A stretch of DNA of 61,110 nt, taken from assembly GCA_009773155.1 (NCBI GenBank), contig WOVA01000012.1, positions 1 through 61,110 of the forward strand, in the 5' to 3' direction. This stretch comes from Elusimicrobiota bacterium. Its GTDB lineage: Bacteria > Elusimicrobiota > Elusimicrobia > Elusimicrobiales > UBA9959. Below are positions 4,089 through 61,110 of this stretch, in pieces. A model generated the notes under the pieces. It had not been told where the DNA came from. It was given only the letters and a program-made list of their open reading frames with translations, and did not search any database. Numbering within the stretch: the first letter of the stretch is position 1; each line of letters opens with the position of its first letter. Made by a program: the position numbers and the translations under genes.

Positions 4089-4957
4089 AAAAAGCCGCCC
4101 TGGCCCTCCTGGTCCTGGCCGCCGCCGGCGCCGCCTGGGCCTCTTCCCGGCACGGGGCCTTCAAGGCCGTCGAGGAAGCCGCCTGGATGAACACAGTCTC
4201 CCAGAAGAAGGGCTTCGTCGATTACTATTTCGAGATAGGCCAGGACGGCTCGGTCATCCTGCGCGACGAATCCAAGGACGGTCTCACCATCAGGCGCGGC
4301 CGCATCAAGGCGATGTACGCCAAGGACTTCTTCCGCGAAATAAAGAGCTCCGACATACTCAACGCCCAGACCGGGACCGGCAGCAAGATGGTCTTCTACA
4401 AAGGCGACCAGCTGCAGATCTCGGCCTATATCAACGGCGAGCTGCGGCGTTTCGAGGCGCCGCTCAACAAGTTCGGCGAGGCTTTCTCCTACGCCATGAC
4501 CGAGGCCCGTAAGGCCGCCGAGAAGCTGCCCGTCGACGAGAAGGTCGCCGGTTTCCTAAGCGCCCAGCCGCTCGTCGGACCCATGCGCGACGCTTTCATC
4601 GTCCGCGTCGGCCAGGATTACGATTTCAAGCTGGTGGAGACCTACGACCTGCAGAAGAACAAGCACCTGATGGCGGCCGTGAAACAGCCGCACCGCCTCA
4701 TCCCACTGGAGAGCGCCAGGGACATAAAGACGATCTCCGATTTTATAACCAGTCACAAGATCTACGGCCTGCGCGACCTGTTCTATGTAAAGACCACGCG
4801 CGGAGAATTCCGCTTCCGCATACAGTACAGCCTCAAAGAGGCGGAGAAGCCCACGCAAGGCGAGGACGGATCAGGGCGGCGTTCGCCGCAGTCGGTGCCG
4901 GAAACACTGCGGCCGGCCAAGCCCGCCGGCAAGAGCGCCGCCGGCTCCGGCAAATAG
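4085..4957 (+). CDS. Secreted protein of unknown function
   Basis: 290 residues from GTG 4085, whose GTGA overlaps the stop of the MauE-like gene. The N-terminus VKKAALALLVLAAAGAAWAS is a clean signal peptide. The mature part is mixed alpha/beta with many Lys/Asp residues, and the Ala/Pro/Gly-rich tail looks disordered. No family is recognised. The frame stays open upstream to 3623, but that part is an alternate reading of the MauE gene. Its place after DsbA-like and MauE-like genes suggests an envelope role, possibly as a client or partner of the disulfide pair; this is speculation from order alone. Confidence 0.75.
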   Translation: MKKAALALLVLAAAGAAWASSRHGAFKAVEEAAWMNTVSQKKGFVDYYFEIGQDGSVILRDESKDGLTIRRGRIKAMYAKDFFREIKSSDILNAQTGTGSKMVFYKGDQLQISAYINGELRRFEAPLNKFGEAFSYAMTEARKAAEKLPVDEKVAGFLSAQPLVGPMRDAFIVRVGQDYDFKLVETYDLQKNKHLMAAVKQPHRLIPLESARDIKTISDFITSHKIYGLRDLFYVKTTRGEFRFRIQYSLKEAEKPTQGEDGSGRRSPQSVPETLRPAKPAGKSAAGSGK

Positions 4958-60770: not shown

Positions 60771-60842
60771 GCCGGCGTAGCTCAACGGTAGAGCAACTGT
60801 TTTGTAAACAGTAGGTTGGAGGTTCGATTCCTCTCGCCGGCT
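60771..60842 (+). tRNA. tRNA-Thr (TGT)
   Basis: 72 nt cloverleaf: acceptor GCCGGCG/CGCCGGC, D-stem GCTC/GAGC, anticodon loop TTTGTAA with anticodon TGT, T-arm GGAGG-TTCGATT-CCTCT, discriminator T. CCA is not encoded. TATAAT at 60752-60757 is a good -10. Confidence 0.95.
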
Positions 60843-60868: not shown

Positions 60869-60945
60869 GGCCCCTTCGTCTAGCGGCCTAGGACGCTGCC
60901 CTCTCAAGGCAGAGATCACGGGTTCGAATCCCGTAGGGGCCGCCA
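60869..60945 (+). tRNA. tRNA-Glu (CTC)
   Basis: 77 nt including encoded CCA (60943-60945). Acceptor GGCCCCT/AGGGGCC, anticodon loop CTCTCAA with anticodon CTC, T-loop TTCGAAT. TATAAT at 60853-60858 is its own -10. The 3' half is overlapped on the other strand by the end of a recombinase-like gene. Confidence 0.95.
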
Positions 60946-61110
60946 AATTTCTTCTCGGAGACTTTTGGCGCTAGAAGTTTCCGCTAGCGCCTTAAATTCC
61001 CGCAGTTTCTCCGCCGGAAAAATAAATTTTAAATTTATTTTCTTCCCGCCAATAATTAAGTTCGAACCGATATTTTTCAATTTTTGCAGGTTATCGGCCG
61101 AACTTCCAGC
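60916..61110 (-). CDS. 3' end of a recombinase-like gene (partial), overlapping tRNA-Glu
   Basis: Open frame of 64 codons running in from the right edge to TGA at 60918-60916. Composition is clearly AT-richer than the rest of the window. The part before the tRNA reads NLQKLKNIGSNLIIGGKKIN, then LKFIFPAEKLREFKALAE. The last residues (IWRPLRDSNP) come from reading the tRNA backwards. This hydrophobic strand, L.F.F...L..F tail and ending inside a tRNA are typical of large serine recombinases of tRNA-integrated elements. A GGCGCTAG/CTAGCGCC hairpin lies at 60968-60992. Only the end is visible, so the family is tentative. Confidence 0.6.
   Translation of the reverse strand, partial: AGSSADNLQKLKNIGSNLIIGGKKINLKFIFPAEKLREFKALAETSSAKSLREEIWRPLRDSNP

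Follow-up and report, generated by a model that had tools for sequence, protein, structure and literature searches.

One end of a serine-recombinase genomic island at a tRNA-Glu gene in Elusimicrobiota

The window analysed here, a stretch of 61,110 nt, is the whole of contig C20 in a 2.76-Mb, 93-contig Elusimicrobiota genome (G000), and its right edge is one end of a mobile element located at a tRNA-Glu gene. In our estimation it is probable (roughly 80%) that this edge is the attL of a genomic island mobilized by a large serine recombinase whose targets are the 3' ends of tRNA genes, and that the copy in this genome joins a tRNA-Ser to a tRNA-Glu. The recombinase, its arms and cores, the tRNA junctions, the attR sites, the empty sites and the defence cargo of relatives can all be read from the sequences themselves, as described below.

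Results

A recombinase gene runs into tRNA-Glu at the end of the window

The contig ends at position 61110, inside the recombinase gene, leaving a minus-strand frame that is open from there to a stop codon at 60916-60918, inside tRNA-Glu; its 64 codons end in EEIWRPLRDSNP before the stop. The 165 bases 3' of the tRNA have a G+C content of 40%, as compared with a mean of 64% for the window and a minimum of 44.8% in any other sampled window stretch of this length. Both the abrupt AT-richness and the frame entering from the right had been noted in a preliminary description of this DNA, and both hold. The features of the window end are as follows.

60771..60842, plus strand: tRNA-Thr(tgt), upstream member of a tRNA pair that is conserved in relatives
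60869..60945, plus strand: tRNA-Glu(ctc), integration target and B half of the attachment site, with the same arrangement in loci L055, L058, L059 and L084; its minus strand gives the final codons and the stop of the recombinase gene
60916..61110, minus strand: C-terminal 64 codons of a large serine recombinase (residues 443-506 in the numbering of L055), cut by the contig end
60940..60950, plus strand: core CCGCCAAATTT, common to the tRNA 3' end and the element, with the same core at contigs C14 and C4 and in relatives; the inferred place of DNA exchange
60940..61077, plus strand: P' arm, the element end, inverted with respect to the arm beside tRNA-Ser on C14 and overlapping the region that codes for the recombinase C-terminus
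60967..60991, plus strand: hairpin GGCGCTAG-loop-CTAGCGCC

The 8-bp hairpin is perfect, as first described, and lies one base to the left of where it had been placed. A G+C-rich hairpin is often found near the same place in other P' arms; it is absent from some, and individually significant against shuffled sequences in about a third. An Rfam search of the last 1.1 kb returned nothing above threshold besides tRNA-Thr and tRNA-Glu.

By homology, we assign the window's frame to the C-terminus of a large serine recombinase of about 506 aa, because its 64 codons match the C-termini of complete recombinases: they are 73% identical over 64 aa to the protein at the same tRNA-Glu in another species (genome G017, residues 442-505; E 3e-30), and 48% identical to a complete paralogue on contig C4 of the window's own genome. 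In all the tRNA-Glu copies compared, the protein ends in WRPLRDSNP, which is the tRNA read on its antisense strand. With the last 411 bases of the window as query, related sequence was found in the genome beside tRNA-Ser (C14) and tRNA-His (C4). The C4 gene points at tRNA-His, terminates within it and encodes a 497-aa protein with Resolvase, Recombinase and zinc-ribbon domains, in which the catalytic serine and flanking motifs (YARKSTDE, DRLARN) are recognizable by inspection; the copy in the genus-mate G019 similarly has a Resolvase N-terminal domain, then a Recombinase domain and zinc ribbon. The earlier suggestion of a large serine recombinase is thus confirmed by the domains of complete relatives. 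By sequence, the nearest solved structure is the catalytic domain of a conjugative-transposon recombinase; the nearest curated models, Ccr and XisF, score far below cut-off, and the phage and plasmid relatives among the matches listed are less than 30% identical to the recombinase. A serine recombinase frame of 547 aa at G000:C34:94801-96282 (L013, L015) is more distantly related (23-27% identity).

The probable remainder of the gene on contig C14, beside tRNA-Ser

Contig C14, too, breaks off inside a recombinase gene, here beside tRNA-Ser(tga), and carries the codons for residues 1-380 (L008:5872-7011). This piece shows 94% identity to recombinases from tRNA-Glu(ctc) sites of other Elusimicrobia and groups in the tRNA-Glu(ctc) clade of the protein tree (99 SH-aLRT), so that the C14 half fits the half in the window. 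Apart from the complete C4 copy, the genome has only these two pieces, residues 1-380 and 443-506, which do not overlap; the roughly 62 codons between them are on no other contig of the assembly, the C4 paralogue excepted. When one of them is inverted, the C20 and C14 arms are identical at 113/138 positions, including an exact run of more than 50 nt. Furthermore, G019 (Ess09-09, L063) has one complete recombinase gene with the counterpart of the C14 flank (5.6 kb, 85%) on one side and that of the C20 flank (6 kb, aligned as three pieces, 78-82%) on the other. From the clade of the C14 piece, the missing codons, the arrangement in G019 and the matching inverted arms, we infer that C14 and C20 carry the halves of one copy, with tRNA-Ser(tga) at one end and tRNA-Glu(ctc) at the other. 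The preliminary description had expected cargo beyond the window; on this reading the far side is taken up instead by the other part of the gene, by an additional arm in inverted orientation and by tRNA-Ser, and cargo is found in sister elements and on contig C7.

Several observations stand against this reconstruction. The assembly does not join C14 to C20, and the recombinase at the joining in G019 comes from a different clade, with 73% amino-acid identity to that of C14. Since, in addition, inverted repeats are not clearly recognizable in the G019 arms and the tRNA-Glu there is of the (ttc) type, the G019 copy is not a simple orthologue of the one in the window.

The tRNA-Glu beside tRNA-Thr in G019 (L163:19045-19120) has the anticodon ttc, as compared with ctc in the window, possibly as the result of an exchange between tRNA-Glu genes. 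We also considered the adjacency of tRNA-Ser and tRNA-Glu as an old arrangement of the genus, and rejected this on finding that in G017 and G018 the tRNA-Ser is empty and the tRNA-Glu lies elsewhere.

Related elements in Elusimicrobiota and Patescibacteria

Relatives were found in 38/59 genomes of the family, and a scan of GTDB genomes yielded 80 loci, mainly in Elusimicrobia and Patescibacteria. In 67/80 loci the 3' end (CCA) of a tRNA faces the 3' end of the gene (33 Ser, 11 Glu, 11 Gln, 7 His and 5 Asp), and one of these, L063, has a second tRNA at the gene's 5' side. A tRNA at the 5' side only occurs in 1/80 (L104), and none was detected in 12/80. Judged from the protein tree, the recombinase clades follow tRNA type: the isotype changes 9 times along the tree, as compared with a minimum of 28 in 500 label shuffles, and copies at Glu(ctc) and Glu(ttc) are largely separate. 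Three loci are unusual. In L104 the recombinase is reversed at tRNA-Ser(gct), with a P arm (see below) on the gene's 3' side, an arrangement that suggests inversion or use of a second attP. L107, a tRNA-His copy in an Elusimicrobia bin, has a decayed recombinase broken into several frames. L117, on a contig labelled Actinobacteria, groups with Patescibacteria copies and represents either a binning error or a transfer.

In these loci the gene is bracketed by inverted arms of about 100-135 bp, with a median identity of 98.5% (56 loci) and an identity of at least 97% in 35/56. The outer arm starts at the CCA end of the tRNA and overlaps the region coding for the recombinase C-terminus, and in 40/43 testable loci a conserved P arm of about 60 nt directly precedes the core and inner arm. 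In several loci a second, inverted P arm occurs 2-10 kb further out and leads to a core and then to sequence other than P', which places the ends of the mobile unit at tRNA-core-P' and P-core-host. The P-core-P' sequence beside the gene is therefore apparently an internal attP, inverted and intact; judged from this layout, the outer arm forms attL and the inner arm is part of the inverted attP.

The arms are 97-100% identical in most loci (L045-L124), even though one arm is protein-coding and the encoded proteins diverge from each other by as much as half; this near-identity points to concerted evolution. In about half of the 80 loci (L045-L124) the contig ends 20-560 bp upstream of the recombinase start, reflecting either assembly failure at the inverted repeat or real heterogeneity at the internal attP.

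Empty sites and attR junctions

In G017 and G018, tRNA-Ser(tga) is unoccupied and is directly followed by CCAATATT and then a terminator. In the window's genome the downstream flank of tRNA-Ser(tga) sits instead on contig C7, from position 4194 onwards, where a P arm is followed by CCGCCAATATT and the flank, forming the matching attR. A corresponding junction for tRNA-Glu(ttc), P-GGCGCCAAATTT-terminator, is present on G019:C5 and matches the flank of an empty tRNA-Glu(ttc) on G000:C45. These empty sites and matching junctions bear out the proposal that the element inserts directly at the tRNA 3' end. The features of a tRNA island are accordingly present: an integrase gene at the tRNA 3' end (in the window and in 67/80 relatives), empty sites in relatives, and a far-side copy of the tRNA end with host flank (on C7 for tRNA-Ser and on G019:C5 for tRNA-Glu(ttc)).

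The C7 P arm adjoins DNA of lower G+C content with a Fic-family gene and is nearly identical to the P arm of a tRNA-Glu(ctc) element, which is consistent with a Glu-type recombinase having used tRNA-Ser; the tRNA-Ser end has CCGCCA in common with tRNA-Glu. The partner junction expected from the reconstruction, P-core-tRNA-Glu(ctc) flank, was not found in the window's genome, which has three P arms only (C4, C7 and C70); this is the chief weakness of the reconstruction. As to the direct repeat anticipated on the far side, the window's genome yielded one that belongs to tRNA-Ser but no repeat of the tRNA-Glu 3' end beside a tRNA-Glu flank. A search of 22 genomes for the empty site of a Patescibacteria copy (L095 flank) yielded nothing usable.

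Other remnants and copies were seen. In G018, tRNA-Glu(ctc) on C15 (L128) is followed by a truncated P' arm without recombinase, the scar of a lost element, and a P-core-P' remnant lies 9 kb from it (L192). The C4 element at tRNA-His (L007:10774-12776, G000:C4) has a complete recombinase, an internal attP and, beyond it, the frame of an XRE-type regulator; the P arm on C70 (L196) is identical to that of the C4 element and probably marks its other end.

Cargo and defence genes

The DNA between the P arms is AT-richer, with 36-47% G+C in complete copies. The cargo of relatives often comprises anti-phage defence systems. In L155, PADLOC models recognize Gabija GajA/GajB and a Pbe protein; in L157, a type I restriction system; in L159, a CBASS cyclase accompanied by a phospholipase; in L158, a type II methyltransferase together with TIR-like proteins; and in L093 and L117, restriction-modification genes. 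One protein each from L085, L095 and L124 was run against the models and gave no defence match. The systems in L155 and L157 are less than 20 kb from the recombinase and likely belong to the element; a distal P arm was not found in these two stretches. In L085 (1299-5222), from a Parcubacteria genome, one long frame of 1307 aa takes up the interval from the recombinase to the distal P arm.

Discussion

A model for integration and the explanations weighed against it

In the model we favour, the recombinase would bring about an exchange between the attP of the element, composed of arm P, core and arm P', and an attB consisting of the tRNA acceptor end, the CCA and the following AAATTT. Integration would leave the tRNA sequence unchanged, with P' directly behind it, and as the last codons of the recombinase gene lie within P', the gene would then run into the tRNA. 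The plan suggested by the roughly 80 relatives is tRNA - core - P' - recombinase - P' (inverted) - core - P (inverted) - cargo - P - core - host flank, so that an integrated element would retain, beside the recombinase promoter, an inverted attP that is apparently intact. For the window's genome, where tRNA-Ser adjoins one arm (C14), tRNA-Glu adjoins the other (C20) and a P arm with the tRNA-Ser flank lies on C7, the likeliest and simplest history would be an integration at tRNA-Ser via one attP, followed by an exchange of the other attP with tRNA-Glu, which would amount to a chromosome rearrangement. Reconstructed rather than read from the sequence are the join of C14 to C20, the order in which these steps took place and the working of the second attP. 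More tentatively, and at odds somewhat short of even, the gene may be a two-ended module, with two working, opposite attP sites kept identical by concerted evolution, either of which could be joined to a tRNA; after integration the enzyme could use the spare attP to dock onto more tRNAs, to exchange or flip defence cargo and to cause chromosome rearrangements between tRNA genes, and the tRNA-Ser - recombinase - tRNA-Glu arrangement would be a product of this activity.

The most serious competitor, which we nonetheless regard as unlikely, is that there are two ordinary single-tRNA islands, one at tRNA-Glu on C20 and one reversed at tRNA-Ser on C14, each with its own cargo, whose contigs broke at the arms. 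That no contig spans the join, that contigs of relatives often end near the recombinase and that L104 has its gene reversed at a tRNA-Ser would all agree with this. Against it, only two gene pieces, which do not overlap, exist besides the C4 copy, and the P arms are too few for two full islands; the tRNA-Glu(ctc) affinity of the C14 recombinase, the exact run common to the two arms and the joining of the same two flanks in G019 also argue for one copy.

The near-identical inverted arms that bracket the gene alone (1.6-1.9 kb) and recur in the genome led us at first to favour an IS-like transposon, with terminal inverted repeats of about 135 bp and only a serine recombinase, inserted behind tRNA genes. 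It was dropped once the outer P arms and the distal attR were found, and now seems very improbable: in 40/43 loci the inner arm is flanked on its outside by another conserved P arm, the second inverted P arm and core meet host or non-arm sequence kilobases away with AT-rich cargo between, the attR junctions have P and not P', and the protein is a full large serine recombinase of about 500 aa rather than an IS607-type one (the IS607 model scores far below cut-off). A spurious frame, in which tRNA antisense merely continues into chance open DNA of an AT-rich spacer, would account for the final WRPLRDSNP, which is expected beside any tRNA-Glu in that frame, but the 54 residues before it, outside the tRNA, match C-termini of large serine recombinases, and with 48-73% identity over the fragment homology refutes it, leaving it practically no weight. 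An integron-like cassette array was rejected as well: there is at most one distal inverted P arm per copy, with no repeated P/core array in the 12-20 kb upstream of several copies, and a serine recombinase in place of a tyrosine integrase IntI with an attC array.

Relation to known systems

Classical tRNA integrases are tyrosine recombinases, whereas the enzyme here is a serine recombinase. Otherwise the element resembles the tRNA genomic islands of Islander/TIGER (cited in PMC12884075), which likewise insert at the tRNA 3' end, leave the tRNA intact, have a core that corresponds to the tRNA end and carry defence cargo. With serine integrases of the TndX and Bxb1/phiC31 type (PMC10083194) it shares the Resolvase, Recombinase and zinc-ribbon domains in about 500 aa, the position of the gene near one element end and attP/attB-type arms around a short core; it differs in that the target is a tRNA 3' end, with clades according to isotype, that a second, inverted attP lies beside the gene, and that the last codons fall in attP and the target tRNA. 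The main text of that survey of large serine recombinases (PMC10083194) does not mention tRNA. A precedent for the last feature is provided by streptococcal serine-integrase ICEs in rumA, in which, according to the available text of PMC4701971, a direct repeat lies inside the integrase gene and integration swaps the 3' ends of target and integrase, the attachment site being within the integrase gene's own 3' end as it is here; as that text has it, those elements are conjugative and have a protein-coding target, and it describes no inverted second attP.

SCC elements (CcrA/CcrB/CcrC) are similarly islands driven by large serine recombinases; they carry restriction and defence genes and sit at a conserved gene's 3' end, and CcrB is the best-scoring curated NCBIfam model for the recombinase. 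The score is 81 against a cut-off of 900, however, no CcrA, CcrB or CcrC model is matched above its curated cut-off, and the element has one recombinase gene and a tRNA target rather than rlmH. Given the precedent of the rumA ICEs, the curated models below cut-off and the low identity of the listed phage and plasmid relatives, we place the element as a serine-integrase genomic island of a variant that is new with respect to the known ones; among the papers available to our literature search, none was found that describes these elements.

The recombinases represent serine integrases specialised for tRNA genes, with clades by isotype and even isoacceptor, in the Elusimicrobiota and Patescibacteria, two groups known mainly from metagenomes. 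Their cores and arms are well defined, and tRNA-specific serine integrases of this kind would be useful tools. For the organisms themselves, the paired inverted attP arms suggest a built-in means to rearrange cargo or chromosome, and the islands offer a possible route for defence systems into and out of Elusimicrobiota and Patescibacteria genomes.
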